NCBI GenBank assembly: GCA_016841665.1
Contig: JAENYT010000003.1
Coordinates: 83,376 to 147,375, forward strand
Source of the DNA: Methanobacteriota archaeon
GTDB taxonomy: Archaea; Halobacteriota; Methanomicrobia; Methanomicrobiales; Methanomicrobiaceae
Length of the DNA: 64,000 bases
Direction of reading: 5' to 3'
Part shown: positions 11,807 to 64,000 of the stretch, in pieces
Numbering within the stretch: position 1 is the stretch's first letter
Layout: each line of letters opens with the position of its first letter
Made by a program: the position numbers and the translations under genes
Notes under the pieces: model-generated
What the model was told of the DNA's origin: nothing
The model's input: the letters and a program-made list of their open reading frames with translations, nothing else
The model's database searches: none

Positions 11807-12349
11807 TTACCGCATCATGAGGCCCGCCACGATGGCCATGATCCCGCCGAAGATGGCGAGGATGCCGAAGGTCCAGGGCAGGATGATGGCGCCGGAGATG
11901 GGGTTGACGAGCAGCAGGATGCCCAGGATCACGATCAGGATGCCGAGGACTGCCGATCCCCAGCCCCCGCCCTTGAATCCCCAGGCGAGCCTGACCGCAC
12001 CATAGATGATCGCCCAGATGGCGATCATGATGACGAAGAACGACAGCAGAAAGATGGTGCTGTAGATGGGATACGCCAGTATGGCGAGTCCGGCGAGGAT
12101 GCCCAGCACCCCGCTGAGCATCTTCCATCCCCAGTTCGATCGGTCGACAAATAGCCCGACCAGGGCGAATATGCCGCCGAACAGCCAGAAGATCCCCAGC
12201 ACGGTGATGAGCGTGACCGTGGTGATCCCCGGGGCAAATATCAGGAAGAGGCCGACGATGAGGGCGATGATCCCCTCCAGCAGGACCAGCCACCAGGGAA
12301 CGGCCATCGCTTCATACCCCAGTCCGTATGTGGTTGCAGATGATTCCAT
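11807..12349 (-). CDS. HdeD-family (DUF308) membrane protein
   Basis: A 180-residue protein with six hydrophobic helices arranged as repeated DUF308 units, beginning WWLVLLEGIIALIVGLFL and continuing with the pattern GI.ALVGLF and LLSFFVIMIAIWAI. HdeD relatives are linked to acid resistance in enterobacteria; in archaea the role is unproven. It lies immediately upstream of the sulfatase maturase, with essentially no gap, so co-transcription is likely although the functional link is unclear. Confidence 0.85.
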   Translation of the reverse strand: MESSATTYGLGYEAMAVPWWLVLLEGIIALIVGLFLIFAPGITTVTLITVLGIFWLFGGIFALVGLFVDRSNWGWKMLSGVLGILAGLAILAYPIYSTIFLLSFFVIMIAIWAIIYGAVRLAWGFKGGGWGSAVLGILIVILGILLLVNPISGAIILPWTFGILAIFGGIMAIVAGLMMR

Positions 12350-12840
12350 CGAGTTTCACTCCAGAGTTCCTTTTATTTTCATTCTCGTGTGGTAATCGTG
12401 CCCTACCGAACGTCCGAAGGTCGAGAAAAATGGATTATCTGTGTCTGCATGCCTGGACAAGGCGTATCTTTGTGCGGGTATCCATGAGGGTCATGAGGTA
12501 TCGCTTCGGTAGAATGAGCCTACTGTGCGCCTTCGCCATATAAGGATTGCCCCCACGTGGAGAAATCAGTGAAACGCCGCATTTTCCTGTATTTTCATGT
12601 ATCTAGAGTGTTTTTCAGGTACGAGCCGCATGGATCCCGTCGCCCGGGTTGCGATGGACTTCGGAGCGAGAGGCGTGTGCATGAAGGTATCCGGCAACAG
12701 CGTGCTCACCGCTAGAGGCAACGATAATTTGCCCGCAACCGTGTCATACACTCTCATCAGCATTCCTGTGCGGCCGCGGAAAAACTCTACCGGTTTTCAA
12801 TGACCGGGATAGTGCTGAAGCTCCACATTCATTCAGCCTG
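12350..12840. other. Gene-poor stretch, no convincing gene
   Basis: This 491-nt stretch has only short overlapping frames on both strands (65-71 residues) without ribosome-binding sites or recognisable domains. An AT-leaning patch lies near 12,350-12,400, upstream of the HdeD-like gene, and may hold its promoter. Confidence 0.5.
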
Positions 12841-14079
12841 CTATCCGGGCTCGTGCTCCTGCAAGACAAATGTCCGCAGGAGAGACATCGAGAGGTGGGA
12901 AGTGACAACGGCAATGCCAATCGGAGCCATTGCGATTGGACCAATGCCAATCGTGCCGGCCGCTATCAGTATCAGGGAAACCGGTGCGCTCAAGAACGCA
13001 CCGGGAATCGCCGCCAGCAAACATCCGACACACAGTGTAATGGGGAGCGCAGGGAAAATGCTGTGTACCAGGAGTCCCGCTGTCCCCCCTATAAAGATGA
13101 TGGGAAAGACGATACCCCCTAAATAGCCGCTCGATTCACTGAACGCCACTGCGAACATTTTGGCGATCAGGACGGCAATAAGAAAACCCGCTCCGAGTGT
13201 GGCGGAAATCTGAAGTTCGGTGGTAAGCTGGCTGCTGCCGGAGGTCGCCGTAAGGGGGAGGGCGAATGCGATCAGCCCGACGAATGCACCACCGATCATG
13301 CCAGCCACAAGAGGATTGGAGATGCGCGCGAATACGGCTGAAACCACCTTTCTAATGAGGATTAAGAGCAGCAGCACGAATGCGGACAACACACCGAGCA
13401 GTGCTCCTACCAGCAGATGACTGAAATTAAACTCATACGCCGGAAGAGCATAGGAACCCAGCATCGTGCTGCCGGTCACGCCAAAAAAAATCGCAAATCC
13501 GACGGTTGCTCCGAACAGTGCGGGAATGAACGCAACCAGATAGTACCGCTTCGGGGTCGGTCCGAGTTCAGACGCCAGCACTGCCGCAAACAGGGGGGCG
13601 CTGAAGGCGGCTCCCATACCACTCGCCATACCGGTTAGCGCATACTCATGCTTTGCTTCTTTATCCCGTATTCCCAGGCGGGTTACAAACCATGAGCCGA
13701 TACCCCCACCCAGCATGGTGAGGGCAAAAAACGGGCCCAGACTTGCGCCGGCAATAAGTGAGACTGCTGATATCGCAACCAGGGGGAGTACATTCCCCGG
13801 CTCGACCCACGCCTGGTGAGCGAGTGTTATTGGATCGGTGACTTTTTTTGGAATCTTCCAGAGTTTGCGTATCACGGCAACCGTAAGCCCCCCAAAGGCT
13901 GTCAATGGTATCCACCACCAGTTGCCGGTCCACCAGTCAGTACCGGAGTCACCGAAGAAAAAGTCTGTTCCCGTACCGGTAATTCCCATGAAGACGAGAG
14001 CTGATACGCCAGCAGCCACCCCGAGTACGAATGCATGCACGAGAAGTCGTTGGTACCACGATTGGTCAACCGGAAGCAT
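12841..14079 (-). CDS. ClC-family chloride channel/transporter lacking the gating Glu
   Basis: A 412-residue ClC protein with about 10-12 hydrophobic helices. The region equivalent to the GREGP loop reads AGASLGPFFALTMLGGGIG, with Leu where the external gating glutamate normally sits. The later SSGYLGGIVFPIIFIGG corresponds to the GxFxP loop. No cytoplasmic CBS domains are present. In studied ClC proteins, neutralising the gating Glu uncouples protons from chloride, so this may be a passive anion pathway (inference). An AGGA ribosome-binding site precedes the ATG. Confidence 0.88.
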   Translation of the reverse strand: MLPVDQSWYQRLLVHAFVLGVAAGVSALVFMGITGTGTDFFFGDSGTDWWTGNWWWIPLTAFGGLTVAVIRKLWKIPKKVTDPITLAHQAWVEPGNVLPLVAISAVSLIAGASLGPFFALTMLGGGIGSWFVTRLGIRDKEAKHEYALTGMASGMGAAFSAPLFAAVLASELGPTPKRYYLVAFIPALFGATVGFAIFFGVTGSTMLGSYALPAYEFNFSHLLVGALLGVLSAFVLLLLILIRKVVSAVFARISNPLVAGMIGGAFVGLIAFALPLTATSGSSQLTTELQISATLGAGFLIAVLIAKMFAVAFSESSGYLGGIVFPIIFIGGTAGLLVHSIFPALPITLCVGCLLAAIPGAFLSAPVSLILIAAGTIGIGPIAMAPIGIAVVTSHLSMSLLRTFVLQEHEPG

Positions 14080-14526
14080 ATCTGAATCCTGTCACTCTCT
14101 CCATGCCCCAGTATAGTTCCCGAAGCAGCGGATTGCAGTGGTGCGGAAATGCCCGGCGATGTTCGTGGGAATTGCCAGTATCTAGCCGAAATCGGAATCG
14201 ACCGGGCTATTCCCGGTGCTCACCGAAGCTGTCATTTCACTATCTTTTGGGGAGCAACTCTGATGCACATGGGTGTTCGCACATTTACGCACTTTACGCC
14301 CATTTTGGACGGTCTGAACCTTGATTTCGGGGCATTTTCCAATTTATTTACTAATATAAATATATTATTGCAGGCAGGCGGTACACGAACTCCGCAGCAA
14401 TGGTTCGGATAGAACTGCGCAATACCGGGTTCTCTCAAGGAGGAAAGAGCGGATCCGGGAGAGGAGGCGGTAGCCAAACTTTTTTTACCTCTCTTTCCGT
14501 TCATGCTTGCATGAAGGTGAGAGGCG
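14080..14526. other. Intergenic region with AT-rich promoter patch
   Basis: This 447-nt stretch separates divergent genes. Short frames here lack support. The AT-rich block around 14,340-14,370 (aatttatttactaatata) is a likely promoter, placed about 160 nt before the TMEM175-like gene. Nothing else is evident. Confidence 0.4.
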
Positions 14527-15204
14527 ATGGCTGCCCCCGATGAGAACAGGGAGACCTCCGGCCGGACCCGGCTGACCCATATTCTTCCCACGGACCGGCT
14601 GAATGCGTTCGCCGACGGCGTGTTCGCGATCGTCATCACGCTGCTCGTGCTCGAAATCCCGGTGCCGGAGGTTGCCGACGGCCTGTTCTGGGCACTCGTG
14701 GAACAGTGGCCCGACTTCCTCGCCTATCTCATCAGTTTTGTGTTCATCGGCGGGTTCTGGATGACACACGCAGCCATCACCCGGCTCACGGCGCAGGAAG
14801 ACCAGGTCACCTTCCGCCTGACGCTTATTGCGCTCTTCTTCGTCTCCCTGATCCCCTTCTCCACGAGCCTGATGGCCACGCACCTCACCGGGCCGGGTTC
14901 CCGGCTATCGGTATCCATCTACGGGCTGGACCTGCTCATCGCCTCGATCATGCTGAGCGGGATCATGCGCTACCTTGCCCGGCGCCGTGAGCTGCTCGTG
15001 GACGGCCTCGCGGAGGAGGATTTTGATGATATGGAACGAAAGCGGCGGTCGGGCATCATCTTCAACGGCATCGGGGTGCTGCTCGCCCTGCTCTTCCCCC
15101 CGCTGGCGGTCGCCGTGTACATCGGGGTGGCGATCTTCTTCTTCGTCCAGCCCCTGCTGTATAAACGGATTATACGGCGTTCTTTGAAAACGCACGGGGA
15201 GTGA
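14527..15204 (+). CDS. TMEM175-type potassium channel (DUF1211)
   Basis: A 225-residue membrane protein with six hydrophobic helices. The first helix carries the family signature RLNAFADGVFAIVITLLVLEI (consensus R..xFSDGVxAIxxTLL), with Ala in place of the usual Ser. TMEM175-family proteins form tetrameric K+ leak channels without a classical selectivity filter. GGTGAG precedes the ATG at a suitable distance. It lies among several other ion transport genes and probably has its own promoter. Confidence 0.88.
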   Translation: MAAPDENRETSGRTRLTHILPTDRLNAFADGVFAIVITLLVLEIPVPEVADGLFWALVEQWPDFLAYLISFVFIGGFWMTHAAITRLTAQEDQVTFRLTLIALFFVSLIPFSTSLMATHLTGPGSRLSVSIYGLDLLIASIMLSGIMRYLARRRELLVDGLAEEDFDDMERKRRSGIIFNGIGVLLALLFPPLAVAVYIGVAIFFFVQPLLYKRIIRRSLKTHGE

Positions 15205-15245
15205 AAATCCCGCTCGCCGGGAAAAGCGGGAATATCAACCGTGAA

Positions 15246-16577
15246 TTATTTCTCTTCGCCTTCACCGGCCCCGGCATATTCGATTGATGCGTATTCAAGG
15301 ACTCCGACCACGCGTCCCCGCCGGTCGGGAAGCTCCGGCACCTCCTCCTTTTCGGGCGCGGTATCTTGGAGAGTCTCTGCATACCGGGTGTAGCGTTTGA
15401 TCGCGGGATTCGCCGAGATACCGTGGGCAAACACGCTCAGGATGACCGTTGCCGTGACGGCAAGGGAGATGGTCTGCATTCCCGGGAGCGTTCCCGCTTC
15501 CCCGAGAACAGCGAGCAGCAGCACGATGGAGGCGAGGCCCCGGGGGCCGAACCATCCCAGAAACAGGACCGTAGCGGTGCCCAGGCGGGAGCCAATCAAG
15601 GCGATGGCCACCGGCAGCATGCGGACGAAGGTGAGACTCAGCACCGCATAGAGGGCGAGGACGAGGCTGAAGTGCTGGATCAGGACGTAGGAGAGGATGC
15701 CGAGGATGAAAAAGATGGCATGGCCGAGGATCTCGCCTTCGGCCTCGGTGAAATCGACGAGGGATCGGACGACGTTCCGGTATACCGCTCCTGCGAAAAA
15801 ACCGGCGATAAATGCGGCGATAAACCCGGATGCCCCCAGGAGATCGGCGAGAATCCAGGCGATGATGGCGATACCCATCAGGGCAATCCACTCGTAGATC
15901 TGCTCCATCCATCCGTGTTCCACCGCCCTGTTCATTAACCAGCCCCCGGCAAGTCCGACCATCGCCCCCACGATTACGGCCAGCCCGATCTGGACGATTG
16001 CGGAGACGATCCAGAACCCGGGGGTAAGCTGCAGCTCTTCCGTGATAGCGATCGTTACCAGGACGGTGAGCACCGGGATCACCGCCCCATCATTGAGGCC
16101 TGCCTCCACGTTGAGCGCCTGGCGTATCCGCAGGGGCACCTTCTCGCTGGACACGATGGCCTCGCCGAGCGCCGCATCGGTGGGCGAGAGGAGGCAGGCG
16201 AGGATTCCCGCTTCAAGAAGGGTGAGATCGGAAAAGAGGAGGACGCCCACCACAATGCCGGCCGCAATGGTCAGTGGCAGCCCGATCACGAGCAGACGTG
16301 CAGGGAGATCGCCGCTCCCTTTCAGCGCACGGAGGTTGATGCGGGAGGCATCGGAGAACAGGGTGAGCACCAGTGCGATCTCTGCGATCAGAAGCACGAA
16401 TTCTCTCTCGGCGGTGAGCGTGACAAGATCGATGCCCCCCGGCCCGAGCAGCAGGCCCGTGGTGAGAAACACCATCGGTGCGGTGAGGAACGTCCCCTCG
16501 ATCCGGCGGGAGACGAGGCTAAAGAGGAAGAGCACCGCCACAAAGGCGGCGAGAAAGATGATGACTTCTTCTGCCAT
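15246..16577 (-). CDS. CPA1-type cation/proton antiporter
   Basis: A 443-residue membrane protein with 11-13 hydrophobic helices and the CPA1 pattern. Helix-breaking SPTDAALGEAIV (residues about 130-141) and the ion-binding segment NVEAGLNDGAVIPV (around 155) correspond to the TD and ND motifs of Na+/H+ exchangers. The C-terminal 60 residues are hydrophilic and acidic. It would exchange Na+ or K+ for H+. The ribosome-binding site is weak. The 42-nt gap separates it from the convergent TMEM175 gene. Confidence 0.9.
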   Translation of the reverse strand: MAEEVIIFLAAFVAVLFLFSLVSRRIEGTFLTAPMVFLTTGLLLGPGGIDLVTLTAEREFVLLIAEIALVLTLFSDASRINLRALKGSGDLPARLLVIGLPLTIAAGIVVGVLLFSDLTLLEAGILACLLSPTDAALGEAIVSSEKVPLRIRQALNVEAGLNDGAVIPVLTVLVTIAITEELQLTPGFWIVSAIVQIGLAVIVGAMVGLAGGWLMNRAVEHGWMEQIYEWIALMGIAIIAWILADLLGASGFIAAFIAGFFAGAVYRNVVRSLVDFTEAEGEILGHAIFFILGILSYVLIQHFSLVLALYAVLSLTFVRMLPVAIALIGSRLGTATVLFLGWFGPRGLASIVLLLAVLGEAGTLPGMQTISLAVTATVILSVFAHGISANPAIKRYTRYAETLQDTAPEKEEVPELPDRRGRVVGVLEYASIEYAGAGEGEEK

Positions 16578-24104: not shown

Positions 24105-24176
24105 TGGGCCCGATGCGATTCGAACGCATGACCGTCCGGTTATGAGCCGGACGCTCCACCACTAAGCTACGGGCCC
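24105..24176 (-). tRNA. tRNA with CAU anticodon (Ile2 or elongator Met)
   Basis: The minus strand folds as a complete tRNA: acceptor GGGCCCG/CGGGCCC, D stem GCTT/GAGC, anticodon stem TCCGG/CCGGA with loop CTCATAA (anticodon CAU), T stem ATGCG/CGCAT with loop TTCGAAT, and discriminator A. CCA is not encoded. The acceptor stem GGGCCC with A73 resembles archaeal isoleucine tRNAs, so this may be tRNA-Ile2, whose C34 becomes agmatidine to read AUA, rather than elongator Met. It does not look like the initiator, which carries GGG/CCC at the loop-proximal anticodon stem. Confidence 0.92.
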
Positions 24177-42687: not shown

Positions 42688-43824
42688 CTACCTTGAAAAG
42701 ACATCGGGAAGGTTGGCGGAATTGTCAGACTGTCGGTATTCGTGCCTGTGGCGGTGGTGGATATCGGGCCGGTGGGGATGGGAATGCGTACATACCTCGT
42801 GTGTATGGAGGTGCGAATGAAATCCCCAGGTATCGAGGGGAGGCGCCTCCTCACTGTGCGCATGGTCATGGTGGCCGTCATCATGACTATGGCGGTGCTC
42901 ATGAACCTCGGAAGGATGCGTATGCCTATGGATGTGGTTTTCGGTGATAAGGAGGAAGCATCCCACCAGCATAAGGCCGAATGCGATAAAGAAAAGCGTT
43001 CCCGGCGTGTCGGAAAAGATGAGGAATGCAAACCCTACCCCGAAAAATGGCGAGAGTGAAAAGAGGGCTGCACCTCTGGCCGAACCCAGGCCCCGTATGG
43101 CGAGGACCAGGCAGATGCTCATGAGCCCGCCGAAACTTACCATCCCGATGGCCATGGCGGTCAGGGTGGTTGGGGGGGATGGCAGGGTCTCACCGAGAAC
43201 CTGCGCGAGAAAAAGAGAGAGGGTTCCGGCGCCAAGCCCTTTCACCATAATGATCGTGAAGGGATCCTTCCCCGAGATGCGCTGAATGATATTATTGTCA
43301 ACGCCCCACACGGTGCAGGCGAGGATCACGCCGAGCGCCCCGAGGGATACCCCGTAAGCGGCATCGGGCCTGTAGGTGAGCAAGGCGCAGGAGAGGGTGA
43401 TGAGCACGATCGAAAGCCCGATGCGCCTGTCCACGAATTCTCCCACCAGAAGCGCGGCGATGAGCATGGTGGCCACTCCTTCGAAATTCAACAGGAGCGC
43501 AGCGATTGATGCCGGCGTATGGGGGAGACTGAACATCAGGATCACCGGCCCCAGAAACGAACCCACCACCATGGTTCCCACGAGCCACGGCACATCTTCG
43601 CGGCTCAGGGCAGCTTCATGATGCCTCCGCGGTCTCCCGGACAGGGAAAGGAGAATCCTAATGAGGAGCAGGCTCAAACCACTGCCCAGAAAGAGCAGTC
43701 CGGCCATGGTGGCGGGAGGCACTTCGCCGAGCATATATTTCGAAGCCTGGGCTCCCGCACCGAACAGGAGAGCCGCGAGGATTCCGAAAACCACATAAAT
43801 ATGCCGTGATGACGCAATTGGCAT
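42688..43824 (-). CDS. DMT/EamA transporter with His-rich cytoplasmic tail
   Basis: A 378-residue transporter. Residues 1-300 hold ten hydrophobic helices in two EamA repeats. The last 75 residues are extraordinarily rich in His (HIHRHTHP, HEHRHSHDDGHHDHAHSEE, HSHLHTHEVCTHSHPHRPDIHHRHRH). Such tails bind Zn, Ni or Co in many metal transporters, so this permease may export or sense a metal; the transport substrate itself is inferred. The start lies before a weak ribosome-binding site. It is the last ordinary chromosomal gene before the first att-like site. Confidence 0.85.
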   Translation of the reverse strand: MPIASSRHIYVVFGILAALLFGAGAQASKYMLGEVPPATMAGLLFLGSGLSLLLIRILLSLSGRPRRHHEAALSREDVPWLVGTMVVGSFLGPVILMFSLPHTPASIAALLLNFEGVATMLIAALLVGEFVDRRIGLSIVLITLSCALLTYRPDAAYGVSLGALGVILACTVWGVDNNIIQRISGKDPFTIIMVKGLGAGTLSLFLAQVLGETLPSPPTTLTAMAIGMVSFGGLMSICLVLAIRGLGSARGAALFSLSPFFGVGFAFLIFSDTPGTLFFIAFGLMLVGCFLLITENHIHRHTHPSEVHEHRHSHDDGHHDHAHSEEAPPLDTWGFHSHLHTHEVCTHSHPHRPDIHHRHRHEYRQSDNSANLPDVFSR

Positions 43825-43932
43825 TAGATCTCACAGTATGTGGAGTTAAAGGAAAAAGTATTGTGATTTCTCTCGAATGCTCCCCCTTATATGAGAATGC
43901 ATCGGGGATGAGATCTCAATAAGAATAAAAGG

Positions 43933-43950
43933 ACGCCCCCGACAGGATCT
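43933..43950. other. att-like site 1 (tRNA-Asn 3'-end fragment, one mismatch)
   Basis: The 14-nt core cgcccccgacagga at 43,934-43,947 matches the tRNA-Asn 3' end (cgcccccaacagga) except for one base. Its right flank resembles that of site 2; its left flank, the presumed original chromosome, does not resemble sites 2 or 3. This would be the distal end of the first inserted element. Confidence 0.65.
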
Positions 43951-44119
43951 GCGGAATGGGCTTCAAATGTTCTTTATTTTGCATTTTGCAGCAATTTACG
44001 TATCTCTATTTTAAGCCAAAATGGGAAAAATCTTGCGCGTGCCTGCACCGGTGAGTAGGTCCTCTCCCTCACAAGCCCAAAGCGCCATCGTTTCGTAATC
44101 AGGGCCAATTTTTGCGCAC
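43948..44119 (+). repeat. Right-arm repeat Y, copy 1
   Basis: About 170 nt that align almost without gaps to 47,674-47,845, by eye around 80% identical. Shared stretches include aatgggcttcaaat, gcaatttacgt, gggaaaaatcttgcg and gtgcctgcaccgg. It directly follows att-like site 1. Confidence 0.85.
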
Positions 44120-44229
44120 CAATCACCCCTATTTAAATCTCTCAAGTAAGCCCGAATAATCCGTATTTTAGCCCGAACGTTCTCATTCACGCCCCTGTCT
44201 ATTATGACATTTTGTTTGACTGCCTCCAC
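44011..44229 (-). CDS. Small ORF or C-terminal gene fragment inside arm Y
   Basis: A 72-residue frame ending GPDYETMALWACEGEDLLTG then AGTRKIFPILA. The same region in the second arm copy, in a shifted frame of the track, reads GPYYETIAIVACEREDLLAG then AGTRKIFPFLA, so the amino acids are conserved along with the DNA. The upstream half (ENVRAKIRIIRAYLRDLNRG) is not present in copy 2. It could be the tail of a gene once adjacent to the att site. I do not recognise the family and see no recombinase motif. Confidence 0.4.
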   Translation of the reverse strand: MEAVKQNVIIDRGVNENVRAKIRIIRAYLRDLNRGDWCAKIGPDYETMALWACEGEDLLTGAGTRKIFPILA

Positions 44230-44350
44230 CTGCTCGTGCGCGATGGTGCGGTGCGAAAGCCGCTGGTGGGATTATAACCTTCCGCCTTATGAGGTGAAGA
44301 GTTGTTACATGGAGTCTATTCTTGTCAATTCACGAGATATCCCATCAAAA

Positions 44351-45532
44351 TTAGCTATAACAGGGTGAAACAGTATCTTCTCTATTACTGCGAATATTCT
44401 GTTCCGGAACCACTGTTGCAGACTTTGATGTATCATTTATTTTGCTTTGTTTTGGACGAAGCCCAAAAGCTTCTTGGAAGCTCTTGGCATTGACAAATTT
44501 ATCAACCAATCCTTGATATGGTGGGAAAGCTCCTCCAAATCCGATAACTCTACGAGCATCGGCGATTGATTCCAATTGATCTGGATTCCAAAAAGGCGAA
44601 ACATATTGGTTTTTCTTAAGTGATGTCAATGGCTCATATCTCATTGGATACGAAACACACCCCATTTTGGCAATGTCCTGAATTATTTCCAAAAATGAAT
44701 TTGGATCATCCCCATAACCAGTTTCTTGATTATAGAAATTATACAGAGTATAGAAGAGAATTTTCCTTCGCTTAATGCCAGCCTCTTCGAGATGTTTAAC
44801 TGCTCTTTCTACCGCATTTTTTTCATCTTTAAAATCATACGCCATTCGGATTATCGGCGTTTTAATTTCTCCAATAAGTTGAGCCTTTTCTTCATCCATC
44901 AATCTAGCATCGAGACCTTGATTAAAATCAATTTTTAATCCTGTCTCTTTTAAATCGAAAATTGTTTTTTTCCAGAGTGGAGATGCTAGAAAATTGTTAT
45001 CCCATAGGATTACTTGCTTATGATTGGGATGAATAAATTTTTGTATATCCGAAATTGCAACTCTAATTTTACCTTCAAGTTTTGGGACAATACAAAATGG
45101 ACAGTTCCTGATGCAGCCACGTGTAGTGAACAATATCGAACTATCCCATTTTTCCCATTTCTCAATGGTATTCAGAATGTCATATGCGGGCATGTATTGT
45201 TCAGCTGCGTCATGCAATCCTATGTGAACATTAACAAAAGGATAGTGGGCTTTAACTCTATTAGGCATAATTGAAGCATACAGCCCTCCAACAGATATTT
45301 TTGCGTCGGGAAATTTTTCATGATAGAATTCTATTGCTTTGTGCACTGGAGACCAGGCATATGTGAAAAGCGAAGTGATGTATATTTTATCAGGATCGGT
45401 ATTTAGGTTCTGTTCGAGGCCACGAATTAAACTGATCTGATCTCCACGTGAACGATGGTACGAAGCCAGTTTTAATAACCCTAATGGAGGATATTTTGAA
45501 TAATACTGTGGCTCGACGAGAAGAATATCCAT
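44351..45532 (-). CDS. Radical SAM protein with B12-binding-like N terminus
   Basis: A 393-residue enzyme. The first 110 residues look like the Rossmann domain of B12-dependent radical SAM proteins (MDILLVEPQYYSKYPPLGLL, VGGLYASIMPN) without the full cobalamin-binding DxHxxG motif. The cluster motif is RGCIRNCPFC (Cys140, 144, 147), followed by a TIM-barrel part (ILWDNNFLAS, FNQGLDARLMDEE). Reaction and substrate are unknown. Codon use is AT-rich like its neighbour and unlike the rest of the window. ATG 45532 is preferred over the track's TTG start; its ribosome-binding site is weak. It lies 98 nt after the GHKL gene and is probably co-transcribed. Confidence 0.85.
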   Translation of the reverse strand: MDILLVEPQYYSKYPPLGLLKLASYHRSRGDQISLIRGLEQNLNTDPDKIYITSLFTYAWSPVHKAIEFYHEKFPDAKISVGGLYASIMPNRVKAHYPFVNVHIGLHDAAEQYMPAYDILNTIEKWEKWDSSILFTTRGCIRNCPFCIVPKLEGKIRVAISDIQKFIHPNHKQVILWDNNFLASPLWKKTIFDLKETGLKIDFNQGLDARLMDEEKAQLIGEIKTPIIRMAYDFKDEKNAVERAVKHLEEAGIKRRKILFYTLYNFYNQETGYGDDPNSFLEIIQDIAKMGCVSYPMRYEPLTSLKKNQYVSPFWNPDQLESIADARRVIGFGGAFPPYQGLVDKFVNAKSFQEAFGLRPKQSKINDTSKSATVVPEQNIRSNREDTVSPCYS

Positions 45533-45630
45533 AAGTGGTATGTGTGGGTCTCTGATGTTAAGGATTCCGAAAATCAATCACTTGAGGATCCACATTATTG
45601 TGATTGATAGGATCCTTCGAATACTCGTTA

Positions 45631-47373
45631 TCAAACCTTCTCTGAATGGTCTATCAGACGGTAAAGTAAACCCATTACTGCCACGATTTGCGCCATGACC
45701 TTCAAACGTTCAGCTTCTGTCGTGCCTTCCAACCATTCCAGTGTATCATGCCCTTTTTCATGTTTAAATGAGTTGATGATTAAATCATAAAATGTGTATA
45801 CCATTACACCGAAGCGTCGATTTTTTTCTGGTTTGGGATGGAATTGTAATAGAGGGCCGCCTTTCCTTTCAGTTACGTTCCCAAAACCATAGGCCTTCGC
45901 AATTAAGTCAATAAATTTAGTTGCGTTTTCACCTGTTTTATCTTTAAGCAGTTCTTCAATGGAGTCGGCTACAGAATTTACAGGATTTAACAGTCCTTTG
46001 CCTTTGGATCTCTTTACGGAGTCCTTTACAGGTTTAGGGAGTGTTTCAATCATCTTGTTTAACTCTTCTCTTCTTTGTCGGATTAATTCTGCTTGTAAGT
46101 CTTTTTCTGAAAAATCAACTTGATCTGCAATTTGATCGAGTTCTTCCTTGATCTCTTCTCCGTGGGCATCAATAACGGTTTTAATTGCTAAAAAAGCCGG
46201 GTTTCCGGGGAAACTTCTTGATTTAACAGTGCTCTCTCTAACCTTTTTTATATCTTTTTTAGCTTCGGGTATGTTTCCCTTTTCAATTTTTTGTGAGATA
46301 CTTTTTAATTTACGAGACTTCACGATTTCTGCTTGATAGCGATTTGCAATTTGTAGTTGTTTTACACAATCAGCAACTTGATCAAAAAAAGGCCGAAAAT
46401 CCTCACTGTTGTATTCAAATCCATTTCTTCCTGCATTTTCACGGATATTTTCGGAGATTATGTGAATCTCTCCATATTGCCACTGATTATAAAATTCAGT
46501 ATAAAATGACTTAATTAAATTTTCATCTCCAATAGTCATCCCTTTCTTTTTAAAGAAAATACCGCCGTTTGGCCATTTTAGTACTTTATTTTCTTTTGTT
46601 GTAACAAACCACGCAATTGCAACAATCTTCTCCTTAACGGCAATTTTATATTGGATAATTGGCTCATAGTATAGATTTCCATTGTATGGGGGTCTGTATA
46701 TTTTCTCTTTATTAAACCGAATCTCAACATCAGGGAAGGAAATGCCATTCTCGATTAGATACTTGTTTACTTCTACTAACCGTGGGAATTTCACCAGGTC
46801 AAATGGTGCAGGGGCAATTTTTTGGAGATATTGCACAATTTCGCTATCAGAAAAAAATCGCATCTGATTCGGAAGTATTGTTTCGAGTCTTATTATGGTG
46901 AAGTGATCGTCTTTAAAAGATTCATTCTTTCCTAGCTCAACTTCTTCGATATCAGATGTGGCTTTTGTGAGGATATTTGTTATTGGCTCATTGCTTTGAT
47001 ATGCTTCTCTAAGTATTTCATTATCTATTTCTACCCTCAATTTTGGCTTATTTTTCATTTTCGATATAATTACAATCTTCATTGATGCCGACACGCCACT
47101 CCAAATCCCTAGACCTCTCCATCCAATCTGATCCTTTTCCTTTTTCGATTTGCCGATACTGAGAGCCTCTTTTAGGCCAGATTCGTCCATACCATCGGCA
47201 TCGTCGTGAATAACAAGAGTATTTCCATTTTCAAGATAGATATCGATATTTTTCGCGCCTGAATCTATGCTGTTCTGAATATATTCACGGACACAATTCA
47301 AATTTCCATCATAGAGACCAGAAGTAATTGTTTCAATTAAGCGTGCGCCGATAACCTCATTTGTAAATTCCAT
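45631..47373 (-). CDS. GHKL (Hsp90/MutL/MORC-like) ATPase
   Basis: A 580-residue protein with a Bergerat-fold ATPase domain at its N terminus: N-box VREYIQNSIDSGAKN (29-43), Mg/ATP motif DDADGMDESG (57-66) and ATP-lid GWRGLGIWSG (84-93). A transducer-like beta/alpha region follows (about 200-330), then a helical C-terminal half with coiled coils (about 350-450), without the His-kinase phosphoacceptor or a DNA-cleavage motif. GHKL ATPases of this plan occur in several bacterial defence systems; a role here is inferred from family and island context. GGTGAAGG precedes the ATG. AT-rich codon use marks it as acquired. Confidence 0.85.
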   Translation of the reverse strand: MEFTNEVIGARLIETITSGLYDGNLNCVREYIQNSIDSGAKNIDIYLENGNTLVIHDDADGMDESGLKEALSIGKSKKEKDQIGWRGLGIWSGVSASMKIVIISKMKNKPKLRVEIDNEILREAYQSNEPITNILTKATSDIEEVELGKNESFKDDHFTIIRLETILPNQMRFFSDSEIVQYLQKIAPAPFDLVKFPRLVEVNKYLIENGISFPDVEIRFNKEKIYRPPYNGNLYYEPIIQYKIAVKEKIVAIAWFVTTKENKVLKWPNGGIFFKKKGMTIGDENLIKSFYTEFYNQWQYGEIHIISENIRENAGRNGFEYNSEDFRPFFDQVADCVKQLQIANRYQAEIVKSRKLKSISQKIEKGNIPEAKKDIKKVRESTVKSRSFPGNPAFLAIKTVIDAHGEEIKEELDQIADQVDFSEKDLQAELIRQRREELNKMIETLPKPVKDSVKRSKGKGLLNPVNSVADSIEELLKDKTGENATKFIDLIAKAYGFGNVTERKGGPLLQFHPKPEKNRRFGVMVYTFYDLIINSFKHEKGHDTLEWLEGTTEAERLKVMAQIVAVMGLLYRLIDHSEKV

Positions 47374-47521
47374 TTTCCTTCACCACAATTGGATTTGAAA
47401 AACACCAAAAGGTCTACAATTAAGATCAATGGATAATTGACAAATATAGATATCGATTCTTAAAATGGATATTTCGAAATAATCTGAAATTTTCTAACTT
47501 AAAATTTCAAGAACAAAAACG

Positions 47522-47658
47522 TTGTCGAATAATGCTATCTTGAGCCTGTTCTCCTGTGGGTTGTTACCCCGTGATCAACAATAAATTCGAGACTCAAGCG
47601 TGCCGAAGAAACGATTGAAAAAAAACAGAGCGGGCCGCAACCGCACCCCACCAAAACA
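47522..47658 (+). repeat. Left-arm repeat X, copy 1
   Basis: This segment aligns with 63,808-63,947 in the same order: ttgtcgaataatgc against ttgtcaacaatgc, cgtgccgaagaa in both at the same 77-nt offset, then aaaacag.gcggg and gcacccc.cc.aa before the core. Identity is modest by eye, roughly 60-75%, strongest in the last 60 nt. Confidence 0.7.
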
Positions 47659-47676
47659 ACGCCCCCAACAGGATCT
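47659..47676. other. att-like site 2 (exact tRNA-Asn 3'-end fragment)
   Basis: The core cgcccccaacagga (47,660-47,673) is identical to the 3' end of the tRNA-Asn gene at 63,948-63,961. Its left flank resembles that of the tRNA site and its right flank resembles that of site 1, the arrangement expected at the junction of two tandemly integrated elements. Confidence 0.75.
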
Positions 47677-47845
47677 CCGAAATGGGCTTCAAATATTCGT
47701 CACTTTACATTTTGAAGCAATTTACGTCTCTCTATTTTGAGCCAAAAAGGGAAAAATCTTGCGTGTGCCTGCACCGGCGAGTAGGTCCTCTCTCTCGCAG
47801 GCCACAATCGCAATCGTTTCGTAATAAGGGCCAATTTTTTGTGCC
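47674..47845 (+). repeat. Right-arm repeat Y, copy 2
   Basis: The partner of 43,948-44,119. It ends right at the 3' end of the frameshifted small membrane gene, so in the outer element the arm directly abuts coding sequence. Confidence 0.85.
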
Positions 47846-48066
47846 TTATCCCCCCGCCCCCTGTCCCTCGATCCATTCCTTGAGCCGGACGGCAATGATG
47901 ATCACCAAGGTCAGGCAATCAGGTTGATGATGACGAAGTACGCCATCGAGAGATAGCCGTACGCCGGCACGCCGGTGATCTCGTAAGCGATACGTCCCCC
48001 TATCAGGAGGATGATTGCAGCGGCCCACAGCACCGCGAGGAAGAGTTTGATCCGTTTATCAGTCAT
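47846..48066 (-). pseudogene. Small membrane protein gene with one-base frameshift
   Basis: The frame starting MTDKRIKLFLAVLWAAAIILL ends early at 47,911 after VIINLIA. Restoring one base near 47,920 (a C in GCC TGA) lets it continue as ALTLVIIIAVRLKEWIEGQGAGG, a natural second membrane helix and tail, to a stop at 47,846. The full product would be about 73 residues with two membrane helices. GGGGAGGG precedes the ATG. Either a recent mutation or a sequencing error explains it. Confidence 0.65.
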
Positions 48067-48167
48067 TTTTCCCTCCCCTTTCTCTCCCACATAGCGTCTT
48101 TCGATCACTTCCGCCGGAACGCGATGAAGACCATTTTTCCAGGGAAACCAGGAGCACACTGTCACGT

Positions 48168-63828: not shown

Positions 63829-63947
63829 CCGGGATGATGATGAAGCACCCTTCAGCCGGGAACATGCCCCGCTCGATGGAGCAACGTGCCGAAGAATTAA
63901 TGAGAGAAAAAACAGCGCGGGACCCCGATCTGCACCCCGCCGAACAG
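63808..63947 (+). repeat. Left-arm repeat X, copy 2
   Basis: The partner of 47,522-47,658, ending at the tRNA-Asn 3' end. The last 60 nt (cgtgccgaagaa ... gcaccccgccgaacag) are the best conserved. Confidence 0.7.
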
Positions 63948-64000
63948 CGCCCCCAACAGGACTCGAACCTGTGACATTCTGGTTAACAGCCAGACACTCT
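63948..64000 (-). tRNA. tRNA-Asn (GUU), 5' part outside window; att-like site 3
   Basis: The minus strand reads the anticodon arm TCTGG-CTGTTAA-CCAGA (anticodon GUU), a variable loop, the T arm ACAGG-TTCGAGT-CCTGT and the acceptor 3' strand TGGGGGC with discriminator G. The 5' half lies beyond the right edge. CCA is not encoded. The 3'-most 14 nt (63,948-63,961) recur at 47,660-47,673 and nearly at 43,934-43,947, marking it as the target of the integrated elements. Confidence 0.92.

Follow-up and report, generated by a model that had tools for sequence, protein, structure and literature searches.

A GHKL ATPase gene and a radical SAM gene form a linked pair associated with antiviral defence genes: a candidate DNA-marking module from a methanogen

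We analyzed a 64,000-nucleotide stretch of DNA, hereafter the window, from a Methanobacteriota archaeon of the Methanomicrobiaceae (assembly GCA_016841665.1, contig JAENYT010000003.1, positions 83,376 to 147,375), in which a GHKL ATPase gene and a radical SAM (rSAM) gene are the only gene-like contents of an AT-rich insert bounded by direct repeats (Table 1). A preliminary description of the sequence had reported two intact genes in one direction, separated by 98 nt and unlike the host in composition, and both points were borne out: the open reading frames (ORFs) were present with the coordinates and strand described, and the GC content dropped from ~58% to 35-40% across 44-47.5 kb of the window. 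The longest rSAM ORF (44351-45577) begins with a TTG at 45577; the family alignment favored the internal ATG, which leaves exactly 98 nt between the genes. The interval between the repeats contained no further gene-like ORF of more than 100 aa.

Table 1. Coordinates of the gene pair, its motifs, the surrounding insert, and the related four-gene operons (positions without a locus number refer to the window)
Feature	Position	Strand	Basis or remark
GHKL (Bergerat-fold) ATPase gene, 580 aa, first of the pair	45631..47373	-	ORF; HATPase_c_3 match
Radical SAM (rSAM) gene, 393 aa from ATG 45532	44351..45532	-	ORF; alignment; PHROG 9298
CxxxCxxC [4Fe-4S]/SAM motif of rSAM: Cys140, Cys144, Cys147 (393-aa numbering)	45092..45115	-	invariant
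GHKL ATP-site motifs: Glu30, Gln33/Asn34 (EYxQN, 47272-47286), Asp57 (47203-47205)	47203..47286	-	invariant, 14/14
AT-rich insert holding GHKL and rSAM alone	44114..47652		GC ~0.36 vs ~0.58
187-nt direct repeat, low-coordinate copy	43927..44113		87% identical to the high copy
187-nt direct repeat, high-coordinate copy	47653..47839		87% identity to the low copy
Four-gene NurA-like/HerA-like/GHKL/rSAM operon	L147:5336-11593		
Four-gene NurA-like/HerA-like/GHKL/rSAM operon	L148:5504-11762		
Four-gene NurA-like/HerA-like/GHKL/rSAM operon	L149:5466-11776		
Four-gene NurA-like/HerA-like/GHKL/rSAM operon	L040:454-6730		

The assignment of the 393-aa protein as a radical SAM enzyme is secure, because it matched PHROG 9298 (E = 6e-65), carries the CxxxCxxC motif found in 53 of 53 family members, and has the corresponding fold in an AlphaFold2 model; its match to Pfam Radical_SAM (E = 6e-4) lay below the cut-off. 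The other invariant blocks were DNN and the G, D, and R residues within a largely conserved DFNQGLDxR. The model, with a predicted local distance difference test score (pLDDT) of 92, consists of an N-terminal Rossmann domain and a partial TIM barrel, and Foldseek gave MiaB (the best match), MgmA, AprD4, and TokK as its closest solved folds, with E ~1e-11. The rSAM protein shares the two-domain fold and the CxxxCxxC motif with MiaB/RimO and with the class-B enzymes MgmA, AprD4, and TokK; in contrast to MiaB/RimO, it has no cysteine N-terminal to the motif, and none is conserved there in the family, and its chain, unlike those of both groups, stops shortly past the barrel. Binding of cobalamin is plausible; the modelled Rossmann domain contains an invariant GG, and the Pfam B12-binding domain matched with E = 3e-3, below its cut-off. 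The DxHxxG cobalamin motif was not found in the family alignment; it is missing from many class-B radical SAM enzymes too. Beyond the superfamily, nothing in PADLOC, Pfam, or NCBIfam exceeded the cut-off for the rSAM protein, nor was any system returned for the GHKL protein. Prokaryotic viperins are likewise radical SAM enzymes of antiviral defence, but the rSAM protein has different fold relatives and matched no viperin model in these collections, in agreement with the earlier view that it is not of the viperin type.

The GHKL protein matched Pfam HATPase_c_3 (E = 5e-16), and profile comparison gave matches to HtpG, Hsp90, and MutL. Residues E30, N34, D57, G61, and G84-G89 were invariant in the alignment, and the Bergerat-fold motifs (E/N, DxxG, and a G-rich lid) were present. 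An Hsp90-like N-terminal and middle domain is followed by a helical C-terminal region; the pLDDT of the model was 65 overall and better in residues ~30-340, and Foldseek aligned the model with Hsp90/TRAP1 over ~400 alignment columns. The BbrUII/HgiDII restriction enzymes and MZA also combine a GHKL ATPase with a DNA-targeting system, but here both matched weakly and in part, scoring 29.8 bits where the family requires 550 and 15.5 bits where it requires 850, respectively, and no Z1 or AIPR neighbors were seen.

To measure co-occurrence of the two genes, we scanned with profiles of GHKL only, containing no rSAM information, using profile A2 for IMG/VR viral contigs and profile A4 for 232 Methanomicrobiales genomes, with plasmids taken from PLSDB. 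Profile A2 found 13 viral GHKL loci, and an rSAM gene directly adjoined GHKL in 12 of them: in 11 a script located a same-strand rSAM ORF no more than 300 nt away, in L137 rSAM is directly followed by a GHKL frame that the ORF picker had overlooked, and L139 was the only locus without rSAM. In PLSDB the 12 records with a substantial GHKL match were the same 12 that carry a long-form rSAM (hosts Rhizobium, Mesorhizobium, Bradyrhizobium, Agrobacterium, Novosphingobium, and Roseomonas); as several records are near-identical, they represent fewer than 12 independent events. GHKL was present in 6 of the 232 Methanomicrobiales genomes, with rSAM no more than 3 kb away in all five that could be assessed; these six are the window's genome, three with a four-gene operon, G286, where rSAM lies across one gene, and G391, the one not assessable, whose contig ends. 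A further pair, 78-80% identical to that of the window and with 47 nt between the genes, occupies a 3.7-kb contig filed under Ruminiclostridium (L003, JAAYJG010000296.1), reflecting either mis-binning or recent inter-domain transfer. Single-sequence searches of the viral contigs gave no matches where the profiles did find loci, and a one-sequence search of genome contigs found only two relatives. Linkage of GHKL to rSAM is thus far above chance, and GHKL homologues, which might have occurred mostly singly, were almost never alone.

Among 18 pairs, the intergenic gap ranged from -26 to +98 nt, with -1 and -4 the usual values; either gene could come first, and 17 of the 18 had the two genes on one strand. 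Pairwise distances of GHKL and rSAM across these pairs were strongly correlated (Mantel r = 0.94, permutation p = 1e-4), and removal of four close relatives left r at 0.93. These results show that the two genes move and evolve as a unit, which does not by itself prove contact between their products. The preliminary description needs a correction here: relatives of rSAM also occur without GHKL, either with a DndB- or ParB-like partner or alone in phages. What stays constant across the wider family is therefore rSAM, not the pair.

The association of this family with defence genes is strong, and three layouts recurred. In layout A, a NurA-like gene, a HerA-like gene, GHKL, and rSAM follow one another; it was seen in archaea (L147, L148, and L149), in a human gut scaffold (L040), and in two viral loci (L129 and L135, the HerA ORF of the latter not having been called). 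Three of the four operon proteins of the gut scaffold were 43-58% identical to the methanogen proteins, which suggests inter-domain transfer of the four-gene operon. The first gene had no Pfam match, and its best match to a solved structure was NurA with E = 0.76; we call it NurA-like on the basis of a DGS motif and synteny. In Marinitoga virus 1, too, rSAM adjoins genes annotated as HerA and a NurA-type exonuclease. Clusters of the HerA/NurA type are known in defence and correspond to the first half of the layout-A operon, whereas its second half is GHKL plus rSAM. Layout B (L021, L128, and L130-L134) comprises two ParB-like genes, an SNF2 helicase resembling ZorD/DpdE, sometimes a DndB/DpdB-like gene, and then rSAM and GHKL; locus L036 has the SNF2 and ParB-like genes in common with it. 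Layout C consists of DrmA, DrmB, DrmC, a gene for an ~1,100-aa protein that matches DrmE_C very weakly, and rSAM, and was found in five archaeal genomes (L026 in G233, L027 in G080, L029 in G286, L034 in G156, and L035 in G257), with a DndB/DpdB-like gene also present in three of the five. L029 has in addition a GHKL protein that is 38-40% identical to that of the window over its full length. Elsewhere, rSAM lies 5' of DrmA and DrmB (L025), or, together with a DndB-like gene, adjoins PbeA and PbeC in a defence island that also contains RmrA-like and PDC-S41 genes (L028). The window's genome itself has a second rSAM, 50% identical to the first (L024:5575-10491, on contig C68), which adjoins provirus tail genes and is accompanied by genes for a DndB-like protein of 472 aa and a DndB/DpdB-like one of 791 aa. 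No match of the pair to a metabolic or tRNA-modification operon emerged; the neighbors were instead DrmA/B/C, HerA, SNF2, DndB/DpdB-like, and Pbe genes.

A shared ~490-aa gene (MNPVRIFISSVQKEFADER...) flanks layout A at L148:2153-3601 and layout C at L026:3037-4530 and L027:12461-13963. As it flanks both, layouts A and C may swap at a single defence hotspot. Next to the four-gene operon of L148, the region 11924-15406 encodes a protein with a NO VEIN C-terminal region (PD-T4-1-like) and, besides the GHKL of the operon, another, distinct HATPase protein whose zincin-like match is weak.

DISARM, one of the closest known systems, combines DrmA, DrmB, and DrmC with a DNA methyltransferase and either DrmE or DrmD, and its class 2 has been described as DrmE, DrmA, and DrmB plus a methyltransferase (PMC11705971). 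DrmABC is common to the five layout-C loci, but there the slot of the methyltransferase is taken by rSAM, joined in three of the five by a DndB/DpdB-like gene; a motif scan, which a divergent enzyme could escape, found no ORF with methyltransferase motifs in the five clusters. The window insert, for its part, lacks any Drm gene. With Dnd and Dnd-Pbe the family shares a DndB-like (PF14072) partner, and at L028 the neighboring PbeA and PbeC; in contrast to Dnd, no DndC, DndD, or DndE was present in the window insert, no DndC or DndE was found among the L028 ORFs scanned, and rSAM was no relative of DndC by any search made here. In Dpd, which places 7-deazaguanine in DNA, a DpdB-like ParB-fold ATPase likewise stands beside a nucleic-acid-modifying enzyme, and the SNF2 helicase of layout B is like DpdE, but instead of DpdA (TGT-like), for which no match was seen among the neighbors scanned, there is rSAM. 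DpdB has been reported to drive insertion of dPreQ0 into DNA (PMC12839542).

In a viral profile scan, 407 loci with rSAM were found, and the 80 that were kept are mostly short forms without GHKL. Several phage contigs have a small ParB-like gene (L060:5417-7200 and L075:5382-7134) or a gene for a 767-aa DndB-like protein (L052:3645-7170) directly upstream of rSAM, which suggests that these two genes form a marking module in phages. By analogy, which is not proof, these phage loci look like the part of a host system that applies the mark, carried without the rest. In the rSAM tree, GHKL-linked members occupied two separated supported regions, with five label changes: a large bacterial and archaeal clade holding layouts A and B, and the archaeal branch to which L003, L029, and the window copy belong. 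DISARM-linked members lay between and beside these regions, so that the link of rSAM to defence extends across the tree's cellular portion. The link to GHKL is therefore either ancient or arose on more than one occasion.

We propose, with moderate confidence, that the pair represents, in its smallest form, a family of modification-based antiviral systems whose rSAM puts a mark on DNA and whose GHKL serves it as a clamp or switch driven by ATP. The original suggestion of a compact GHKL and radical SAM defence or modification module is supported by the linkage and the defence neighbors, an antiviral phenotype being predicted. In this proposal rSAM, with its class-B/MiaB-like fold, would be the catalytic core and would place a chemical mark on DNA, most simply a methyl group or another carbon-radical modification. 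GHKL, like MutL and Hsp90, would close around DNA or rSAM upon ATP binding, and would either bring rSAM to its target or, once DNA lacking the mark is recognized, pass this on to an effector. Variable helicase and nuclease modules would act on unmarked DNA, the mark separating the cell's own DNA from that of the virus; in the larger relatives this effector would lie in the cluster as NurA-like/HerA, as SNF2 helicase plus ParB-like proteins, or as DrmABC plus the ~1,100-aa protein. DNA marking is suggested by the DndB/DpdB/ParB-like ATPases, which accompany DNA-marking enzymes, and by the phages, which carry rSAM as they do self-protecting modification enzymes; in addition, the best fold match, MiaB, is a nucleic-acid enzyme.

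Several observations weigh against this proposal. MiaB acts on RNA, so the fold match does not prove DNA as the substrate, and co-divergence of the two genes would also follow from joint transfer alone. Four relatives (L004, L032, L033, and L031, the last beside an AAA_12 helicase) lie outside any evident defence cluster; the GHKL model is poor past residue ~340. No nuclease, DndB-like, or other effector gene accompanies the pair in the window insert, and DrmA was not found in the window's own assembly, which is 85% complete; the window copy is thus a minimal pair that may be incomplete. Because no effector is present, its own activity is less certain: it might use a host effector, act by modification or ATPase blockade alone, or be a protective remnant.

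In a rival reading that concerns this copy only, the window pair would be what is left after decay, or an isolated set of protective modification genes, with its defensive function gone; this is compatible with DNA marking by the family, and we consider it rather unlikely. The missing effector genes, the repeats bounding a piece of 3.5 kb, and the failure to find DrmA in the assembly fit such a remnant, but neither frame is disrupted, every catalytic residue is present, and preservation of an intact, 78-80% identical pair in the L003 contig implies selection on both genes. Should rSAM instead modify tRNA, rRNA, or protein, protecting translation or altering a host factor that the virus needs, its best structural match to the tRNA enzyme MiaB and the next to the protein methylase MgmA would be accounted for, as would the RtcB-like RNA ligase and ASCH genes near rSAM in one phage. 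We judge this unlikely: MiaB-type N-terminal cysteines are absent or unconserved, and the neighbors of the family handle DNA (HerA, NurA-like, SNF2, DrmABC, and DndB/ParB-like proteins). GHKL proteins of other defence systems are thought to be switches, and a third explanation makes GHKL a sensor and rSAM an effector that, on infection, damages invader nucleic acid or makes a viperin-like antiviral nucleotide. A two-gene layout of this kind would explain the nuclease-free pairs of the window and L003; it is nevertheless improbable, since DISARM-like clusters and phages can contain rSAM with no GHKL, it is difficult to see why hundreds of phage contigs would carry an antiviral effector on its own, and the fold is of the MiaB/class-B kind with no viperin model matched in PADLOC, Pfam, or NCBIfam. 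That GHKL is a chaperone or maturase folding rSAM or loading its cofactor, for unrelated metabolism, agrees with the Hsp90/TRAP1 folds and the translational coupling of the genes, but is very improbable given rSAM relatives without GHKL, a distribution that is patchy (six of 232 Methanomicrobiales genomes) and includes plasmids, phages, and inserts, and defence neighbors that recur across unrelated lineages.

Under the DNA-marking proposal the system would count as a form of defence by modification, and it stands a reasonable chance of forming a class of its own. More tentatively, we consider it possible that this is a new self/non-self class in which rSAM writes a carbon-radical mark on DNA that a GHKL clamp reads, modular enough to stand in for the methyltransferase of DISARM, and whose marking enzyme phages have captured as a shield. 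Searches of open-access literature, most subscription papers and bioRxiv lying outside its coverage, found no paper joining radical SAM enzymes with GHKL defence, DISARM, or DGQHR/DndB; the GHKL-rSAM pair and the rSAM of DISARM-like clusters are apparently undescribed. If the proposal is true, radical chemistry would join methylation, phosphorothioation, and 7-deazaguanine as a host-virus identity tag, written by a widespread and unrecognized enzyme family present in 407 viral loci of one scan, in methanogens, on rhizobial plasmids, and in gut contigs. It would also explain DISARM-like loci without a methyltransferase, give a role to the abundant, unassigned phage "radical SAM domain protein" of PHROG 9298, and offer a GHKL switch testable in two genes.

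The insert had been described as tRNA-borne, which was not supported: the sole tRNA of the window is at 24105-24176, and an Rfam search of 43800-48100 was empty. Attachment at a tRNA is thus not visible, and the repeats are a dispersed intergenic element. For the presumed insertion, an empty-site comparison showed the flanking genes to be only partly conserved, and out of synteny, in the relatives covered. At the sensitivity used, no third copy of the 187-nt repeat was found in the 68-contig assembly; its kinship to a dispersed intergenic element is seen in a partial 79% match at window positions 63882-63967, and a congener genome has one related copy in a different context. The segment 39752-40035 is ~89% identical to a congener contig, again non-syntenic, and apparently belongs to a further family of dispersed intergenic repeats of the genus. 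On the minus strand at 42688-43824 is a gene for an EamA-family transporter whose C-terminal tail is very rich in His and which may be related to metals.

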